Shown: one piece after another, positions 42,082 through 50,366 of the stretch
How positions within the stretch are numbered: the stretch's first letter is position 1
How the letters are laid out: the number at the start of each line of letters is the position of its first letter
Assembly (NCBI RefSeq): GCF_000786105.1
Contig: NZ_JTEV01000021.1
Coordinates: forward strand, 1-64,000
Direction: 5' to 3'
DNA length: 64,000 nucleotides
Source: Bdellovibrio sp. ArHS
Lineage (GTDB): Bacteria > Bdellovibrionota > Bdellovibrionia > Bdellovibrionales > Bdellovibrionaceae
Program-made: the position numbers and the translations under genes
Notes under the pieces: generated by a model
Databases searched by the model: none
What the model was told of the DNA's origin: nothing
Seen by the model: the letters and a program-made list of their open reading frames with translations, nothing else

Positions 42082-42651
42082 ATGACAGACTACAGAGACG
42101 TTACACCCGGTGCTCACTCCGACAATGCCAAAGAAGTGCTTCGCTACATCGTGAACTATCTTCGTCACCCGATTGAAAAAATCAAGACATTGCCGGATTG
42201 GAATTGGGCGACATTGCTTGTCACCCTGGTGGCTCTGTCGATGGCTTCGGGTGTTTTGACCGGGCTTGTGCCTCCGAACTTCTTTCGCTTGATGGGCGGA
42301 TTCATTATTTCTCCCCTCGTCGGTGTCACGACAACTTTTATCGGGGCTCTTTTTATTTATTACTATTTCCAAGTCTATGAAAAGCGCACCTGCTCTTTAC
42401 GCAAGATCTTCACCTTGATTCTTTTTGCCAACATTCCCTTCTTTGTTTTTCAGGTTGGTTCCGAAGTCATCCCTCCCATCACTTTGGTGGGCTTTGCCTT
42501 CACCGCTCTTTTAATGGCGGTCGGTCTGACTGAAAACTTTCAGATGGATAAGCGCCGCGCCCTTCGCTTAGTCACGATTCTTTTTGCCATTGTTTTTATC
42601 ATCTGGCTTTGGAATCGCATCGATATTTCACGTTTGGAAAGACTCGGATAA
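42082..42651 (+). CDS. YIP1-like polytopic membrane protein
   Basis: A 189-residue protein with a hydrophilic N-terminus and five hydrophobic segments spaced as in Yip1-domain proteins (a central VGVTTTFIGALFIYYYF and a late RRALRLVTILFAIVFIIWLW). Yip1-like bacterial proteins have no settled function. It starts about 40 bases after the membrane-anchored gene and is followed by a 172-base gap with the promoter-like region of the next operon. Confidence 0.65.
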   Translation: MTDYRDVTPGAHSDNAKEVLRYIVNYLRHPIEKIKTLPDWNWATLLVTLVALSMASGVLTGLVPPNFFRLMGGFIISPLVGVTTTFIGALFIYYYFQVYEKRTCSLRKIFTLILFANIPFFVFQVGSEVIPPITLVGFAFTALLMAVGLTENFQMDKRRALRLVTILFAIVFIIWLWNRIDISRLERLG

Positions 42652-42746
42652 GTTTCCCAAATATCCTAAATTTGAATACAGCCTTGGCGTCTCAATCTTA
42701 GATGTAAGCAAGCTAGACCTTTGTCGGTAATTCTTCCCACTCTCTA

Positions 42747-42805
42747 TTGGTCGAGACCAAACCTGACGATATAGGTCCAGGAAAGCAATTTGTTTAACTC
42801 CTGGA
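42747..42805 (+). promoter_or_regulatory. Promoter-like site with inverted repeats before the formyltransferase gene
   Basis: TTGGTC (42747-42752) and TATAGG (42770-42775) are spaced by 17 bases. The -35 hexamer is one arm of an inverted repeat TTGGTC-GA-GACCAA (42747-42760), placed as an operator would be. Just after the -10, TCCAGGA (42776-42782) and TCCTGGA (42799-42805) form a perfect 7-base-pair inverted repeat with a 16-base loop in the leader, close before the ribosome site. Function is inference. Confidence 0.45.
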
Positions 42806-42823
42806 ATGCATCGAGGTAGCTGC

Positions 42824-43564
42824 ATGAAGACCCTAGTTATCACCTCGGCCGTTACATTCGTGCCGGATAACTATGATGATTTAACTTTCGGCCTGGCCGA
42901 CAACCCGTTTGTACAAGGGTTGGTGGTCATTGATAACCGCAGCGCCGATATTTACCTGAAAGCCCTTTTATTAATGCTTTCGGGGGCCGGTCCCCTGATG
43001 GGCTGGCATCTTCTTAAAAACAGCCTGGATAACTCTTTAAGCCGCAAACAGCAGCGTTATGAATCCGTCGGCAAGAAAGTCTGGGTGCTTAAAGACGTGA
43101 ACTCTGAAGAGTCTTTGAACTTTCTGGCCTCTTTAGAACCCGATGTGATTTTAAATGCGCGCACCCGCTCTTTTTTTAAAAAGCGGCTCTTAGCCATTCC
43201 CAAAATCGGCTGCATCAACATTCATCATGGTCTTTTACCACACCAGCGCGGCTTGATGTGTGACTTCTGGGCCCATCTGCAAGGAACTTCCTTCGGCTTT
43301 TCGCTGCACGAAATGACGTCGAAGCTGGATGATGGCGCGTTACTTAAAGTCGTCGAAGTCCCGACGGATAAAAAGAACTATCTGGAGTCTCTGAAACACG
43401 CCGCGCGCCTTGAAACCACCGCAGCCAACGAGGTGCTGGCTGAAATCGCCCGCACGCAAAAGATTCAAGGAATTGAAAATACAAAAACAGAGCAAACTGT
43501 CTATCGCACCAATCCCCGTCTTATTGATTTTTACAAGCTTCGTTTGCAAGGAATAAAAATATGA
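42824..43564 (+). CDS. Formyltransferase-fold enzyme (GART family)
   Basis: The ATG at 42824 follows GAGGTAGCTGC; the frame is open further back without need. The 246-residue protein shows a divergent N-terminal nucleotide-like half and a clear formyltransferase core: INIHHGLLPHQRG (the catalytic Asn and His) and HEMTSKLDDGALL (the catalytic Asp). Enzymes of this fold use 10-formyltetrahydrofolate to formylate amino groups (purine precursor, Met-tRNA, amino sugars). It lacks the long C-terminal domain of Fmt, so it is not the initiator-tRNA enzyme. The stop overlaps the next start as ATGA. Confidence 0.8.
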   Translation: MKTLVITSAVTFVPDNYDDLTFGLADNPFVQGLVVIDNRSADIYLKALLLMLSGAGPLMGWHLLKNSLDNSLSRKQQRYESVGKKVWVLKDVNSEESLNFLASLEPDVILNARTRSFFKKRLLAIPKIGCINIHHGLLPHQRGLMCDFWAHLQGTSFGFSLHEMTSKLDDGALLKVVEVPTDKKNYLESLKHAARLETTAANEVLAEIARTQKIQGIENTKTEQTVYRTNPRLIDFYKLRLQGIKI

Positions 43565-45969
43565 AAACCATCATTGCATTGCATGGCAACCCCGGTCACC
43601 CGGAAGATTGGACTCTTCTGCAAGAGGCCGTTCAGCCCTTGGGTTACACTCTTCACGCGGTCAAAGCCGACAGCGACGAATGGCTGAGTCTTTTAACTCG
43701 CGATTCCTCGAAAAAAATTCTTTTGGGACATTCCTGGGGTGGATACCGTATTTTGAAAACACTTCCGGCCTACGAAAAATATGTCGAGCAAGTGATCCTG
43801 GTGACTCCCTATCTAAAACCCGAGCGGGAAATTTCTGGCGTCGCCGGAGCTTTACTGAAGCTGCCGATTTTAGGTGATGCCTTGATAAAATCCAACTTTG
43901 CAAAATCGAAAGACGCCTTCTTGCAGGATCTATTTCATCCGTGGTCACTGGCTGACCATCCCTATTTGCAAAAAATCACCGCACGCTTTGATTGGCGTCT
44001 GTGGCAGGAAACGGCCTTCAACAAATTGAAAATGCAAAACAATCCTTGGACCCCTCAGGATGTCGTCAAAACACCGGTCACCGTCGTCTATGGCAGTGAA
44101 GACAAAATCACCGATGAGTCCATTCAGAATCAGATCGTCACTCAGTATCCGGCGCACAAAATTATCAAAACCGCCAAGGCAGGACACAGTCTTCTTTGGT
44201 CTCACATTCAAAACATCTTAGAAATTTTGCAGGAGAAATCAGGTATGTCCCACCCTTCTGAAAAAATTGGTTATTATCCCGGCGCGGATGAACGCAACAA
44301 CGTGATCAGCTATATGGAAAAACATCTGCGCGAATTTCCAGAGCGCGTCGCCCTGTCCTGGGTTTCCCGCGAGGCTTTGGCGAAATGGGATGGGAATCCG
44401 CACACTCGCCTGCCTCATGATCAAATCACCTACAAACATTTCGCTGCGCGAATTAATTCCTTTGCCAGAGGACTTTTGGATATCGGTATTCAAAAGGGAG
44501 ATCGGGTCATCATCTTCCTGCCGATGAGCCTAGACATGTACACGGCCATGTTCGCCGTGCAAAGAATCGGAGCCATCGCCGTCTTCCTGGATTCCTGGGC
44601 ACGTAGCCATCACCTAGGTGCTTCGGCAGAATGCGTCGGCCCCAAAGCGATGATCAGCTTTAATATGGCTTTTGAGCTGGTGAATCAGGTTCCAGAATTT
44701 CAATCCATGCCGATTCGAATCATGTACGGTCCGGGAGATAAATGCACGCACCGCTTTGAAGAGCTTCTGAAGAAAGATCCGTCGCCGATTGCGGCGGTGG
44801 AAAGTGAGTTCACCGCGTTGATTACTTTCACAACGGGCTCGACCGGAAAACCCAAAGGGGCCAACCGCACACATCGTTTTCTTTCGGCCCAGCACCATGC
44901 CCTTTCGCACGTGATTCCGTACACAGAAAAAGACAAGGACATGCCCGCGTTCCCGATCTTTAGTTTGAACAATTTGGCTTCGGGTGTGACCACGGTCTTG
45001 CCGGCGTTGGATTTGGCAGCCCCTTCCGAACGAGATTCTGCAATTCTGGCGTGTCAGATATTAAATGAAAATATTAACTGCACGACTCTTTCGCCGAGTA
45101 TGCTTGTTGGTTTAGCTCGCTACTGCAAGGAAAAGAATTTGATTTTAAAAGGTCTTCGCCGTGTCGTCACGGGAGGCGCTCCGATTTCTAAAGATGACGT
45201 CAAAGCCTTCTACGAAATCGCGCCACAAACTGAGCTCTGGATTTTATACGGCTCTACCGAGGCCGAACCCATGGCGCATATCGAGGGTCGCGACATGCTG
45301 AAAGAAAGCAAGATCACGGACCCTGAAATCATCGAAGAAGGCGTCAACGTGGGTCATATCAGCGAAGACATCGACTTCAAGTTCATCCGTATCAAAGACG
45401 GTCCTGTCGAACTGAAGAATTCCTCGTGGCAAGAAATCGAAGTTCCGACGGGTGAAATCGGCGAGTTTATCTGCACGGGCGACCATGTCTGCCGCGACTA
45501 CTACAACAATCCCGACGCCTTTAAAACCACGAAGATTCTGGATAACAAAGACCGCGTCTGGCATCGCACCGGCGATCTGGCTTACATCGATGGCGATAGA
45601 AATCTTTGGATTGTCGGCCGCGTGAATAATGCCATCGAAAGGGCCGGAAAATATTATTTCCCGGTACGCTCGGAAGTTCTTTTGAAACGTTTTGATTTTA
45701 CCTATCGCTGTGCTTTCTTAGGCGTTCCTGACGCAACACTGGGTCAGGCGACCTATGCCGTGGTGGAACTAAAGCAGGACATTGACGCCAAGTCATTTGA
45801 CTTTGAGTCGGCGAAAAAGGATATCCGCCGGGTTTTTGAAAAAAATAAAATTCCCGTGGACCAAATCAAATTCGTCAAAAAAATTCCTATGGACCCACGC
45901 CATCATTCCAAAGTGGAGTACAAAGTTCTGCGTGATCAACTCAACGATCCCGAGGTGATCATTGCTTAA
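43561..45969 (+). CDS. Fusion of alpha/beta-hydrolase and AMP-dependent acyl ligase (OleB-OleC-like order)
   Basis: An 802-residue two-domain protein. Residues 1-225 are an alpha/beta-hydrolase with nucleophile GHSWGG (Ser58), acid GSEDKI (Asp181) and AGHSLL (His209). Residues 240-802 are an ANL-superfamily ligase with TTGSTGKPKG (424-433), ILYGSTEAE, HRTGDLAYIDGD and a C-terminal SKVEYK lysine region. This order is that of OleB-OleC fusions, where OleC makes a beta-lactone and OleB decarboxylates it. OleA and OleD are not in the window, so the olefin pathway is not shown. A simple acyl-CoA or acyl-AMP ligase with a proofreading hydrolase is the alternative. Coupled at both ends. Confidence 0.85.
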   Translation: MKTIIALHGNPGHPEDWTLLQEAVQPLGYTLHAVKADSDEWLSLLTRDSSKKILLGHSWGGYRILKTLPAYEKYVEQVILVTPYLKPEREISGVAGALLKLPILGDALIKSNFAKSKDAFLQDLFHPWSLADHPYLQKITARFDWRLWQETAFNKLKMQNNPWTPQDVVKTPVTVVYGSEDKITDESIQNQIVTQYPAHKIIKTAKAGHSLLWSHIQNILEILQEKSGMSHPSEKIGYYPGADERNNVISYMEKHLREFPERVALSWVSREALAKWDGNPHTRLPHDQITYKHFAARINSFARGLLDIGIQKGDRVIIFLPMSLDMYTAMFAVQRIGAIAVFLDSWARSHHLGASAECVGPKAMISFNMAFELVNQVPEFQSMPIRIMYGPGDKCTHRFEELLKKDPSPIAAVESEFTALITFTTGSTGKPKGANRTHRFLSAQHHALSHVIPYTEKDKDMPAFPIFSLNNLASGVTTVLPALDLAAPSERDSAILACQILNENINCTTLSPSMLVGLARYCKEKNLILKGLRRVVTGGAPISKDDVKAFYEIAPQTELWILYGSTEAEPMAHIEGRDMLKESKITDPEIIEEGVNVGHISEDIDFKFIRIKDGPVELKNSSWQEIEVPTGEIGEFICTGDHVCRDYYNNPDAFKTTKILDNKDRVWHRTGDLAYIDGDRNLWIVGRVNNAIERAGKYYFPVRSEVLLKRFDFTYRCAFLGVPDATLGQATYAVVELKQDIDAKSFDFESAKKDIRRVFEKNKIPVDQIKFVKKIPMDPRHHSKVEYKVLRDQLNDPEVIIA

Positions 45970-46825
45970 CTGGTGGATTCTTATTAAAGAACGCTTCAGT
46001 CCGGCTTCTTATGTGCCCATGATCTTTTTATTCACAGGGGCCAACGGACTCTTTTTTGCCTCGGCGCAGGGACAGCCGTGGAATTGGGGACGCTTTGTCC
46101 TGGTTTTTCTTTTGCTGCTGTCCTTCTTTTTCCGCATGCGCCTTTTTGATGAAATCAAGGACTATGAGGTCGACGTTAAGGTCAACCCCACACGTCCCTT
46201 GGCTCGGGGAATTCTGACAGTGTCCCAAGTCAAGGTGGCATTGTTGGTTCTGATTGTCTTCGAAGTGGTCCTTGCCAGTTCGTTAGGACTTTTCTGCCTT
46301 CTTATTCATGCCGCCGCCATGGGTTACAGCCTTTTGATGTATGAAGAGTTTTTTGTCGGCGATGTCCTGCGCCCGCATCTGACAACCTATGCAGTGACCC
46401 ACACATTTGTCAGCGTACTTCTGGGTCTTTCTAGCGGCGTGGCCATGACGAATATGAATCCGCAAGAACTCTCGCCGAAACTTTTGCTATTTGTCTTTAT
46501 GAACTGGGCGTTTTTTAATCTTTTTGAGTTTGCGAGAAAAACTTTCGCCTCTGCCGAGGAAAGACCGCACGTCCCTTCCTATTCAAATATTTTTTCCGAC
46601 AAAGGAGCTTGGGCTCTTTCCCTGAGTCAGGCGATCTTGGGCGTGGGGGTTGTTTACTATCTTCTTCCGCACTGGATCTGGCCCGCGTCTTTGACCGCTT
46701 ACATTGTTTTAAGTTCAGTTTATATTATTAAAAAAACCACCCCTGCTGCGCAATTCTTCCGTGCGATATCCGGGGTTTATTTGCTGTTTCACTATGCCCT
46801 AGTGATCTATATGTGGAGATCCTAA
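45962..46825 (+). CDS. UbiA-family membrane prenyltransferase
   Basis: TTG start at 45962, inside the end of the fusion gene, with GAGG 6 bases upstream. The 287-residue protein has about eight membrane helices. The first aspartate-rich motif is present: FDEIKDYEVD with Asp63, Asp67 and Asp71, then NPTRPLARG. The usual second DxxxD motif is not visible; its place is taken by EFARKTFASAEERP. The family transfers prenyl or polyprenyl chains from diphosphates to aromatic or sugar acceptors. The acceptor is unknown. Confidence 0.82.
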   Translation: MLNWWILIKERFSPASYVPMIFLFTGANGLFFASAQGQPWNWGRFVLVFLLLLSFFFRMRLFDEIKDYEVDVKVNPTRPLARGILTVSQVKVALLVLIVFEVVLASSLGLFCLLIHAAAMGYSLLMYEEFFVGDVLRPHLTTYAVTHTFVSVLLGLSSGVAMTNMNPQELSPKLLLFVFMNWAFFNLFEFARKTFASAEERPHVPSYSNIFSDKGAWALSLSQAILGVGVVYYLLPHWIWPASLTAYIVLSSVYIIKKTTPAAQFFRAISGVYLLFHYALVIYMWRS

Positions 46826-46827
46826 TT

Positions 46828-49506
46828 ATGCTGGTCACGCCAAAATCAACGCTGTTCTTTGCAAAAAATGAAGCCGGTGGAAAAGGCTTTAATCTGTATT
46901 TGATGTCGCAGGCGGGACTGCCCATTCCTGAATGGGTGGTGTTCGGCAAAAAGTACTTCCAGGAATTCCTGGATTCTCCGTCGGTGAAGACAACATTGTC
47001 GTTAATCATGCAAAGGCTGTTCAGCAAAGAAATTACTCCGTTGCAGGCCGAGGCCGAAGTTCGCGACCTGTTTGAAAAAACCGGGCTTTCTCAAAATCTT
47101 GCAGACTCTTTAGACAAAGCCCTGAAGGACTTAGGGGCCAACAATGTGTTTTCTGTGCGCTCGTCAGCAGCCGATGAAGACAGTCTGTCGCATTCGTTTG
47201 CAGGCCAGCTTTCAAGCTTTCTTTATGTATCTGGAAAAGAGGATATTCTTAAGTACATCCGTCAGTGCTGGATTTCTGCATTTTCCGAAAGAAGTCTGGT
47301 TTACCGTTTGGAAAACGGCATCGACCTTCAGAAAATTTCAGTGTCCGTGGTGTTACAGCGGATGATTGACCCAGATAAGTCCGGCGTTCTTTTCACCTGT
47401 GACCCCGTCGAAAAGAAAATCGATCGTTATGTCGTTTCCTCGGTCTATGGCGTCGGCGAAGGCTTGGTTTCAGGAACGCTGGATGCGGACTCGTTCTGGC
47501 TTGAGGCTCACTCAGGCAAACTGCTGAAAGAAGAAGTCGTCGAGAAAAAAGAGATGATGAAGAAATCTTCTTCCGGGCATTGCTCGACTTTACCTGTGCC
47601 CGCCCCGTTAGTGAATACGGCCTCGTTAACCCACGAGGAACTTTCCAAACTGTACCGCTTGGGTCACAAGATTCAAGAGCAGTATCACCGCCCCCAAGAT
47701 ATCGAGTGGGCTATTGAAGGTGGAAAAATCTATATTTTACAGACCCGCCCGGTCACAACTCTGCAGGCGGATCTTATCGGCTATCCAAATCTTTGGGACA
47801 ATTCTAACATCATTGAATCCTACGGCGGTTTGACGTCTCCGTTAAGCTTCAGCTTTGCTCTTCGCAATTACAAGGCCGTCTATGTGCAATTCTGCGAGGT
47901 TCTGGGAGTTCCGAACGAGATCATCAAAGACATGGATTCGTATTTGGGTTATATGCTCGGTTCATTGAATGGCCGTGTGTACTACAACCTCTTTAATTGG
48001 TACAAGCTGGTCGGAGTCCTGCCAGGATTTAAACAAAATCGTGAATTCATGGAAACCATGATGGGAGTCTCGGAAGCCTTAAGCGAGGAGATCGCAGATC
48101 GCATCAAACCGCATCCTTCCTGGGACACGTTAAGTGGGCGCATTCGCAAGGCGATCACCGGTTTTAATTTTATTAAATATCATTTCACCATTCAAAGCAC
48201 GGTGGATGATTTCCTCAAGACCTTCCATCGCGACTATGACAAGTATCGCAGTCTGCCTTTGAAGCGCATGCGCGGCGACCAGTTGATTCGCATCTACATG
48301 GAGCTGGAAAGAAACATGTTAGGTCGCTGGAAAGCTCCGATCATCAATGATTTTCTTTGCATGGTGCACTTCGGTCTTTTACGCAAACTCACCACGACAT
48401 GGCTTAAGGATTTGGATTCCACAATCCAAAACGACCTTCTTGCTGGTGAAGGCGGCTTGGAAAGTGCGGAACCCACCAAAGCTCTTTTACGTCTGGCCAA
48501 CAAAGCCGCACAAAACGCGGAGCTTCGTAAACTTATTGAAACTGTGGACCCCGCCGAGGGGCTAGAGGCTTTGAATCAATCTCCTTACCAAGAATTTTAT
48601 AAGTCCGTGCTCGATTATCTCGACAAATATGGCTTCCGTTGTATGAGCGAAATGAAATTGGAAGAAATCGATCTTTTAACGGACCCGAGCTATTTATTCG
48701 TCTGCTTGAAAAACTATTTGAAGTCCGGTCAGACCGAGATTCACGATGACTCTCACGAAAAGTCCTTGCGTGCGCAAGCTGAAAGCAAAGTCGCGTCGCA
48801 TTTGACGGGATTTAAGAAGACTTTTTATTTCTGGGTTCTTAAACATGCCCGTAAGGCCGTGAAGAATCGCGAGAACACACGTTTTGCGCGGACCCGGATT
48901 TACGGTATCGCCCGAACAATCTTCCAAACCATCGGCGAAGATCTGGCGACCATGGGCGCTTTGGAACAACCGCGGGATATTTTCTGGCTGACCATCGAAG
49001 AGGTGTTTGGCATCTATAACGGCACTTTGCCTTCTTTCAATTTAAAATCCTTCGTAGAGCTACGTAAAAAAGACTACGAAAAATTTAGCGAAGAAACAGA
49101 TCCTCGCGTGATGACTCGTGGTGCAGTTTATTGGGACAATACTTTTATCAAAGAAGAAATCCCTCAAGTCGCAGAATCCGGCGATTATGATTTGAAAGGT
49201 CTTCCTTGCTGCCCTGGGGTGCTTGAGGGCGTCGTCAAAGTCATCTTAAATCCAAGTGACAACTTAGAACTCAACGGAGAAATCCTGGTCACCGCGCGCA
49301 CCGATCCAGGCTGGGTCCCCTTGTATCCGGCAATCTCGGGTCTTTTGGTCGAACGAGGAAGTCTGTTATCCCACTCGGCCATCGTCGCTCGTGAAATGGG
49401 AATTCCCGCGATCGTCAGCATTCCAGGACTGACCAAAAGAATCAAATCAGGAATGCGTGTTCGCATTGACGCCAAGGCCGGAACCATTAAAATCCTTGAG
49501 GAATAA
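46828..49506 (+). CDS. PEP-synthase/rifampin-phosphotransferase-like enzyme
   Basis: I use the ATG at 46828, three bases after the UbiA stop, with GGAG inside the end of that gene; a GTG at 46813 is also in frame. The 892-residue protein has the three-part layout of the PEP synthase superfamily. An N-terminal ATP-grasp-like domain (GGKGFNLYLM, VRSSAADEDS, DIEWAIEGGKIYILQTRPV) is followed by a central domain of about 420 residues. The C-terminal swivelling phosphohistidine domain (RGSLLSHSAIVAREMGIPA) has His849. Layout and length fit rifampin-phosphotransferase-like enzymes, which phosphorylate a hydroxyl group, better than PEP synthase. The substrate is unknown. Confidence 0.85.
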   Translation: MLVTPKSTLFFAKNEAGGKGFNLYLMSQAGLPIPEWVVFGKKYFQEFLDSPSVKTTLSLIMQRLFSKEITPLQAEAEVRDLFEKTGLSQNLADSLDKALKDLGANNVFSVRSSAADEDSLSHSFAGQLSSFLYVSGKEDILKYIRQCWISAFSERSLVYRLENGIDLQKISVSVVLQRMIDPDKSGVLFTCDPVEKKIDRYVVSSVYGVGEGLVSGTLDADSFWLEAHSGKLLKEEVVEKKEMMKKSSSGHCSTLPVPAPLVNTASLTHEELSKLYRLGHKIQEQYHRPQDIEWAIEGGKIYILQTRPVTTLQADLIGYPNLWDNSNIIESYGGLTSPLSFSFALRNYKAVYVQFCEVLGVPNEIIKDMDSYLGYMLGSLNGRVYYNLFNWYKLVGVLPGFKQNREFMETMMGVSEALSEEIADRIKPHPSWDTLSGRIRKAITGFNFIKYHFTIQSTVDDFLKTFHRDYDKYRSLPLKRMRGDQLIRIYMELERNMLGRWKAPIINDFLCMVHFGLLRKLTTTWLKDLDSTIQNDLLAGEGGLESAEPTKALLRLANKAAQNAELRKLIETVDPAEGLEALNQSPYQEFYKSVLDYLDKYGFRCMSEMKLEEIDLLTDPSYLFVCLKNYLKSGQTEIHDDSHEKSLRAQAESKVASHLTGFKKTFYFWVLKHARKAVKNRENTRFARTRIYGIARTIFQTIGEDLATMGALEQPRDIFWLTIEEVFGIYNGTLPSFNLKSFVELRKKDYEKFSEETDPRVMTRGAVYWDNTFIKEEIPQVAESGDYDLKGLPCCPGVLEGVVKVILNPSDNLELNGEILVTARTDPGWVPLYPAISGLLVERGSLLSHSAIVAREMGIPAIVSIPGLTKRIKSGMRVRIDAKAGTIKILEE

Positions 49507-49509
49507 AAT

Positions 49510-49536
49510 GAGGGCGGGACTTCCCGTCCTCTCTTA
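49510..49536 (+). terminator. Possible terminator after the four-gene cluster
   Basis: GAGGGCGGG (49510-49518) pairs with CCCGTCCTC (49523-49531) around a 4-base loop with one G-T pair, followed by TCTTACT. The U tract is weak, but the position directly after the last stop fits an operon end. Confidence 0.5.
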
Positions 49537-49592
49537 CTCGCATCGGCGCCACCCGACTTGCTTTCTGATGGGTCCTTATCTATTGTAAAAAT

Positions 49593-50366
49593 ATGAAATT
49601 GATCACCTGGAATGTGAACGGCCTGCGCTCTGTACAACGTAAAAACTTTCGCGACTGGTTCGAAAACGAAAAGGCCGACATTGTCTGCCTTCAAGAAATA
49701 AAAATTTCTGAAGACGCGCTGAAAGAAGATGAAACCCTTTACCACCCCGCTCGCTATCATTCGGTCTGGAATTTCGCCGAAAAGCCGGGCTATTCGGGAT
49801 TAGCTCTTTATTCAAAAAAAGAACCCGAAGCCGTGCGCCGCGGTTTAGGCATTGAAAAGTTTGATCGTGAGGGCCGCTGGTTGGAAGCCGACTTCGGACC
49901 TAAGACCATCATCAATAGCTATTGGCCCAACAGTCAACGCGATCACGCACGTTTACCGTTTAAATTGGAATTTTGCGCGGCTGCGGAAAAACGACTGCAG
50001 GCTCTGCGCAAAAAAGGCCGCGAAGTCATCATCTGCGGTGACTTTAATATCGCCCACAAGGAAATCGACCTCAAGAATCCGAAAACCAATGTCAAAAATG
50101 CGGGCTTCCTTCCGGAAGAGCGCGCGTGGATGACCCACTTTTTAGAAAACTTAGAATGGGTCGACAGCTTCCGCAAATTTGAACAAGGCGGAAACCACTA
50201 CACCTGGTGGAGCTATCGTCCCGGAGTCCGCGAAAGAAACGTGGGATGGCGCCTGGATTACTTCCTGGTCAACAAAGAGGCCTCGGATCGCCTTAAAGCC
50301 GTCAGCCATTTGCCTGAGGTGATGGGCTCTGACCACTGCCCAGTCCGACTGACCTTGAAGAAGTAA
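49593..50366 (+). CDS. xth: Exodeoxyribonuclease III
   Basis: A 257-residue AP endonuclease/exonuclease of the ExoIII family: MKLITWNVNGLRSV, CLQEIKI (metal Glu), ICGDFNIAHKEIDL (catalytic Asp and Asn), WRLDYFLVN and a terminal GSDHCPV (catalytic Asp and His). It cuts abasic sites and removes 3' blocks during base excision repair. It stands alone after the terminator-like hairpin. Confidence 0.95.
   Translation: MKLITWNVNGLRSVQRKNFRDWFENEKADIVCLQEIKISEDALKEDETLYHPARYHSVWNFAEKPGYSGLALYSKKEPEAVRRGLGIEKFDREGRWLEADFGPKTIINSYWPNSQRDHARLPFKLEFCAAAEKRLQALRKKGREVIICGDFNIAHKEIDLKNPKTNVKNAGFLPEERAWMTHFLENLEWVDSFRKFEQGGNHYTWWSYRPGVRERNVGWRLDYFLVNKEASDRLKAVSHLPEVMGSDHCPVRLTLKK

Follow-up and report, generated by a model that had tools for sequence, protein, structure and literature searches.

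The closest described counterparts of the genes considered here belong to betaine-lipid synthesis (BtaA and BtaB), prodiginine synthesis (PigC or RedH, with PigE), the rifampin phosphotransferase Rph, the OleB-OleC fusion, in which the nucleophile of OleB is an Asp residue, the digeranylgeranylglyceryl phosphate (DGGGP) synthase of the UbiA family, and the cyanobacterial acyl-ACP reductase AAR. BtaA attaches an aminocarboxypropyl group from S-adenosylmethionine (SAM) (PMC10685587, PMC6642084); the R. sphaeroides enzyme matches Pfam DUF3419, which predicts the lipid DGTS (PMC6642084). In the reaction model of Rph, transfer runs from ATP to His to the acceptor (PMC4844700). Here we describe a four-gene unit in a 64,000-nucleotide stretch of Bdellovibrio sp. 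ArHS (positions 1 to 64,000 of contig NZ_JTEV01000021.1, hereafter the window), encoding a formyltransferase-family enzyme (FT), a fusion of a hydrolase and an acyl-adenylating ligase, a UbiA-type transferase and a phosphoenolpyruvate (PEP)-synthase-like protein (PPS). Comparison with other genomes suggests that these genes are half of a roughly twelve-gene system, the product of which is probably an unusual membrane lipid that it also exports. The original prediction, made from the window alone, had named no described pathway with this set; in agreement, none was found in the open-access literature on the gene set, on DUF3419 with UbiA, or on Bdellovibrio lipids and clusters (subscription papers were outside the search).

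ORF and Pfam checks gave four open reading frames with intact domains on one strand, followed by a hairpin:

42824..43564, + strand: FT, formyltransferase-family enzyme, 246 aa (Pfam Formyl_trans_N, 2.4e-12)
43561..44265, + strand: N-terminal alpha/beta-hydrolase domain of the fusion, G-H-S-W-G motif with Ser58 (Pfam Hydrolase_4/Abhydrolase_6)
44266..45969, + strand: C-terminal acyl-adenylating (AMP-binding) domain of the fusion, PRK09274/OleC-like (Pfam AMP-binding, 2.1e-46)
45962..46825, + strand: UbiA-superfamily membrane transferase, TTG start (Pfam UbiA, 8e-13)
46828..49506, + strand: PPS, PEP-synthase-like phosphotransferase/ligase (Pfam PPDK_N, 9.7e-75; PEP-utilizers, 1.8e-22)
49510..49531, + strand: hairpin 3' of PPS with a weak T run (folding of fragment 49500-49545)

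The whole fusion gene spans 43561-45969. The coupling was confirmed: the ATGA overlap at 43561, the UbiA TTG at 45962 inside the preceding gene and the PPS ATG at 46828 are kept in 13/13 loci (the window and 12 relatives), and are therefore conserved rather than due to chance. The limits of the unit changed. The FT start is not at 42747 or 42806 and was moved to the ATG at 42824 because every relative begins at that Met. The hairpin is real (−18 kcal/mol, z −3.4, for the fragment 49500-49545), although it has a weak T run and was missing from the output of a terminator scan. The promoter-like site proposed for the unit is unsupported: a promoter scan found no sigma-70-like site in 42651-42824, the gap before FT, and in most relatives the unit overlaps the upstream fadD gene, leaving no promoter gap.

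FT passes the gathering score of Formyl_trans_N (PF00551; 47.4 vs 26.1 bits), and its N-x-H...D catalytic triad N138/H140/D175 (numbered from position 42806) is invariant in 33/33 sequences. Its closest solved structures are sugar N-formyltransferases. The hydrolase domain of the fusion is conserved in the genus; it is a separate small gene in the Fibrobacter locus L064, and tblastn mapping gave no match to it in some Verrucomicrobia clusters. The best NCBIfam match of the ligase domain is PRK09274 (363 bits, under its cut-off of 478), and it scores 208.6 and 214.4 bits against the OleC beta-lactone synthetase models, where cut-offs of 850-900 apply.

The UbiA protein exceeds the Pfam UbiA gathering score (48.7 vs 34.2 bits), and its best PDB relative is DGGGP synthase (6m31). 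The first Asp-rich motif is kept (R60xxD63E64xK66D67xxxD71, invariant in 68/68), whereas the second motif, DxxxD, is replaced by E189xxR192K193, also invariant in 68/68. Prenyl transfer is therefore not assured and we call the protein UbiA-like; its donor and acceptor may differ from those of known prenyltransferases. The "prenylated" product of the original prediction becomes uncertain for the same reason.

PPS consists of an ATP-grasp domain, a central domain with strongly conserved motifs of its own, and a His swivel domain (solved relatives include 5fbs), with the phospho-histidine H849 invariant in 84/84 sequences. In Pfam only PPDK_N and PEP-utilizers matched, and the protein ends after the His domain, without the C-terminal PEP/pyruvate-binding barrel. 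It exceeds the cut-off of NCBIfam NF004881, named phosphoenolpyruvate synthase (1327.5 vs 883), a name that is an annotation and not a test of function. The prodiginine ligase models PigC and RedH give 374.5 and 388.2 bits (equivalog cut-offs 1300/1350) and the Rph model 359 bits (cut-off 999). PPS is thus roughly equally close to the prodiginine ligases and to rifampin phosphotransferase, and the "phosphorylated" product predicted earlier is one possibility only. In several relatives PPS had been flagged with "one in-frame stop", which proved to be the genuine stop codon. By these family tests, every protein can be placed in a known superfamily, yet none reaches the cut-offs set for PigC, RedH, Rph or OleC, the enzymes of named pathways; membership of OleBC, PEP synthase, Rph and the prodiginine enzymes was ruled out on cut-offs or on domains.

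Within Bdellovibrio, FT and the intact unit are present in 14/24 genomes, the window genome included, and UbiA in those same 14 and in two variant copies. The four-gene order is kept at all genus loci examined, one of which is split across two contigs in the G013 draft. The unit lies behind fadD, directly overlapping it, in most species. In the window lineage (G000, G001, G018) it sits between a Yip1-like gene (42082-42651) and xth (49593-50366), which in the other tested Bdellovibrio genomes are separated by 134 kb or more or carried by different contigs; by this comparison, the junction at the window site arose by a rearrangement particular to that lineage. Since one gene order is found at differing genomic sites, the linkage has survived relocation.

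The presence of the unit coincides with that of a second block of genes. UbiA and DUF3419 were found in the identical 17/40 relatives. Among 192 genomes of the phylum, PPS occurs in 64 and DUF3419 in 69, with both in 62 (Fisher 1e-39, a descriptive value that ignores relatedness), and the UbiA counts over the phylum genomes agree with this co-occurrence. In the window genome the second block is on another contig, C10 (locus L127), and encodes an outer-membrane-type protein, an ABC ATPase, a LolCE-like permease, a YegS-type kinase, a short-chain dehydrogenase/reductase (SDR), a protein designated x712, a LolA-like protein, a porin-like protein and DUF3419. The earlier proposal of one pathway made by the four window genes thus held for their linkage but not for its completeness, as the DUF3419, reductase, kinase and exporter block also appears to belong to it.

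The DUF3419 protein of the window genome, on contig C10, is over the PF11899 cut-off, and the cluster DUF3419 shares the invariant residues Y11, E16, D17, G39, D57 and Q62 with a BtaA that adjoins BtaB. No BtaB N-methyltransferase was recognized in the 20 kb around DUF3419; no genome-wide search for BtaB was made. The C-terminal half of x712 (L127:5440-7596) is an acyl-thioester reductase by sequence, with matches to the N-terminal half of PigE (7e-51), PDB 4ppm (8e-28) and AAR. Its predicted structure matches acyl-ACP reductase 6jzu (Foldseek 9.6e-21), the C-terminal domain giving a TM-score of ~0.8 on the target. C640 is invariant in 13/13 sequences, and was equated with the AAR active-site Cys294 by eye from the motif. 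Residues 1 to ~310 of x712 showed no recognized family; the top matches, by sequence and by structure alike, fell on the reductase half.

To follow the unit beyond the genus, a PPS alignment was scanned against 84,980 species genomes, which gave 80 loci, followed by tblastn mapping and ORF clustering. Joint conservation was the original prediction's own means of refutation, and the genes proved to be kept together both within Bdellovibrio and in remote phyla. The ligase-UbiA-PPS core occurs in Bdellovibrionota and Oligoflexia, Verrucomicrobiota, Planctomycetota, Fibrobacterota, Gemmatimonadota, Bacteroidota, one Chloroflexota bin and others. The names of some bins are doubtful, and a "Euryarchaeota" locus (L111) is near-identical to a Gemmatimonadota locus. 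Two forms of the core were distinguished. Type A contains FT, as in the window; type B contains a GNAT-family protein and in many cases a P450, and its ligase, UbiA and PPS have diverged. Among 92 loci, FT is found in 35 and GNAT in 41, and both in none. A hybrid cluster is present in a Bacteriovorax bin (L057), in which a type-A PPS lies beside an inverted type-B ligase, UbiA and GNAT.

Two Bdellovibrio genomes, G020 and G012, carry a type B core beside fadD, the site of type A in most species, along with the same DUF3419 block. The window genome and G001 hold type A elsewhere while keeping type-B relics near fadD. On contig C10 of the window genome (L127:16673-17086) the C-terminal part of a type-B UbiA survives as a relic beside fadD, and G001 (L131:554-2155) has, also beside fadD, this UbiA relic and an intact major facilitator superfamily (MFS) gene, which shares 68% identity with the MFS of type B. 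These are traces of a lost, alternative cluster. The type B core at the fadD site and these relics together suggest that type A and type B cores have replaced one another while the rest of the system stayed in place, and the two cores look exchangeable.

A second substitution was observed outside the window's own phylum. In Bdellovibrionota the core co-occurs with DUF3419 and also with x712, SDR, the YegS-type lipid kinase, the LolA-like protein and the LolCE-like ABC exporter. In other phyla x712, SDR and YegS are absent, and an HMG-CoA reductase (HMGR) homolog is found instead, usually with a second membrane kinase-like protein. x712 is present in 22 loci and HMGR in 17, with both in none, and the x712/HMGR label corresponds to seven changes on the PPS tree. 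The HMGR homolog retains the ENxxG, GDA, DKK and terminal His motifs. The simplest reading would be that the x712 set and the HMGR set do one same step, from thioester to alcohol. The membrane protein of the HMGR set, 220-470 aa long and without a Pfam match, is encoded next to DUF3419 in L062, L064, L068, L108, L112, L113 and other loci. Read by motif, this protein would be a relative of VTE5/dolichol kinase (phytol kinase) in an unrecognized family.

We propose, with a probability of about 50%, that these genes constitute a hitherto undescribed route to a polar aminolipid destined for export. DUF3419 would bring in an amine, and a formyl or acyl group would cap it. At similar, roughly even odds, the window unit would be the exchangeable type A core of that pathway, with export directed towards the outer membrane. 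The ligase would activate a carboxylic acid, and x712 with SDR, or the HMGR homolog, would reduce the thioester to an alcohol. The lipid kinase, PPS or both would then activate the alcohol (for PPS, from ATP through phospho-His849 to the acceptor, by analogy with Rph), and the UbiA-like enzyme would couple it to an acceptor. DUF3419 would transfer the 3-amino-3-carboxypropyl group of SAM, and the amine would stay free because no BtaB adjoins DUF3419. FT in type A would place a formyl group, and GNAT in type B an acyl group, on that amine, and the LolA and ABC proteins would export the product. What the sequences show is gene content and order, co-occurrence, the swaps and the conservation of active sites; the substrates, the sequence of steps and the product are inferred.

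More tentatively, the clusters may make a new cross-phylum class of exported lipids, defined by an alcohol formed by thioester reduction, joining by an altered UbiA-like enzyme, and an N-formylated or N-acylated aminocarboxypropyl head, with type A and type B as two exchangeable sets that make the formyl and acyl versions. For such a class, the UbiA-like enzyme would possibly use an alkyl rather than an isoprenoid donor.

Several points weigh against the aminolipid proposal. The chemistry of DUF3419 is its weakest link: aligned with true BtaA, the cluster protein shows no more than 17% identity, and its structural model, a class-I SAM fold, matches many methyltransferases and, lower down, nicotianamine synthase (Foldseek, VIA-align), so that the modeled fold does not separate an aminocarboxypropyl transferase from a methyltransferase. 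The mutual exclusivity of FT and GNAT amounts to about two changes on the PPS tree, not many, and therefore reflects two old lineages. Many of the distant loci come from metagenome bins with uncertain names. PPS and the reductase resemble prodiginine enzymes, and a secreted small molecule is thus possible.

That last point leads to the first rival, a secreted natural product made by prodiginine-like logic, in which the reductase would make an aldehyde and PPS would condense it with a partner using ATP, as do PigE and PigC. We consider this doubtful. The scores of PPS against PigC and RedH (374-388 bits) and the resemblance of x712 to the N-terminal half of PigE (7e-51; 8e-28 to PDB 4ppm) are what it would predict, and P450 is frequent in type B clusters, with an MFS transporter in that of G020. 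The scores are nevertheless far under the PigC and RedH cut-offs (1300/1350), the aminotransferase half of PigE is missing, and the partners (a lipid kinase, a BtaA-family enzyme, and LolA-like and LolCE-like exporters) point to a lipid.

An isoprenoid ether lipid was also considered, for which UbiA would attach a genuine prenyl moiety to a hydroxyl of the glycerol type, and HMGR with the prenol-kinase-like protein would supply isoprenoids in the distant phyla. The Pfam UbiA match, the retained first aspartate motif and the archaeal DGGGP synthase as best solved relative are consistent with this, as is the co-occurrence of HMGR and the VTE5-like protein in 13 clusters. The invariant ExxRK in place of DxxxD argues against it, as does the absence of any locus with both HMGR and the acyl-ACP-reductase-type enzyme that seems to stand in for it. 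The supply of isoprenoids was examined in eleven distant genomes. Four have no DXR match, and three of these have HMG-CoA synthase, as an ether lipid would suggest; the other seven have DXR and no HMG-CoA synthase match, and six of the seven carry HMGR beside the cluster. At least in those six, a role of HMGR in isoprenoid synthesis is unlikely, and the seven genomes weaken the case for the linked HMGR as an isoprenoid supplier, which may still hold for the other four. Overall, an isoprenoid ether lipid appears improbable. In the Bdellovibrio genomes G000, G006 and G020, neither DXR (PF02670) nor HMG-CoA synthase (PF01154) was found, so these two models give no clear indication of where their isoprenoid precursors come from.

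That the four genes are unlinked housekeeping neighbors (a PEP synthase, a formyltransferase, a fatty-acid ligase and a quinone prenyltransferase) would fit the NCBI equivalog call of PEP synthase for the last protein (1327 bits, cut-off 883), but is largely refuted and highly improbable, as PPS lacks the C-terminal PEP/pyruvate-binding domain, and the set is present or absent as a whole within the genus with its order conserved across phyla.

If the aminolipid proposal or its nearest rival is true, predatory bacteria, Verrucomicrobiota, Planctomycetota, Fibrobacterota, Gemmatimonadota and Bacteroidota would share a new class of lipid or natural product, and real functions could be assigned to proteins that currently carry the labels PEP synthase and DUF3419. 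The clusters also offer a subfamily of UbiA proteins in which the active site is changed.

Comparison of the unit and its partners with the known systems shows likeness in architecture and departures in detail. Like the OleB-OleC fusion, the window fusion joins an alpha/beta-hydrolase to a PRK09274/OleC-type ligase, but the ligase is far under the OleC cut-offs and the hydrolase has the Ser motif GHSWG. With DGGGP synthase, its closest solved relative, the UbiA-like protein shares the first aspartate motif but not the second, which is ExxRK instead of DxxxD. The C-terminal domain of x712 resembles AAR (TM-score ~0.8 on the target), whereas its extra N-terminal domain has no recognized family. 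PPS has the ATP-grasp, central acceptor and His swivel domains of Rph, likewise without a PEP barrel, but scores 359 bits against 999 and has its own conserved motifs in the central domain. From the prodiginine enzymes, PPS shares the ATP-grasp and His domain architecture of PigC and RedH, and x712 resembles the reductase half of PigE; the scores are far under the cut-offs, and x712 lacks the aminotransferase half. As in the BtaA/BtaB system for DGTS, the cluster has a BtaA-family DUF3419 with shared invariant residues, but this protein is 17% identical to BtaA, has no BtaB beside it, and is accompanied by the ligase, UbiA, PPS, FT or GNAT, a reductase and a kinase.

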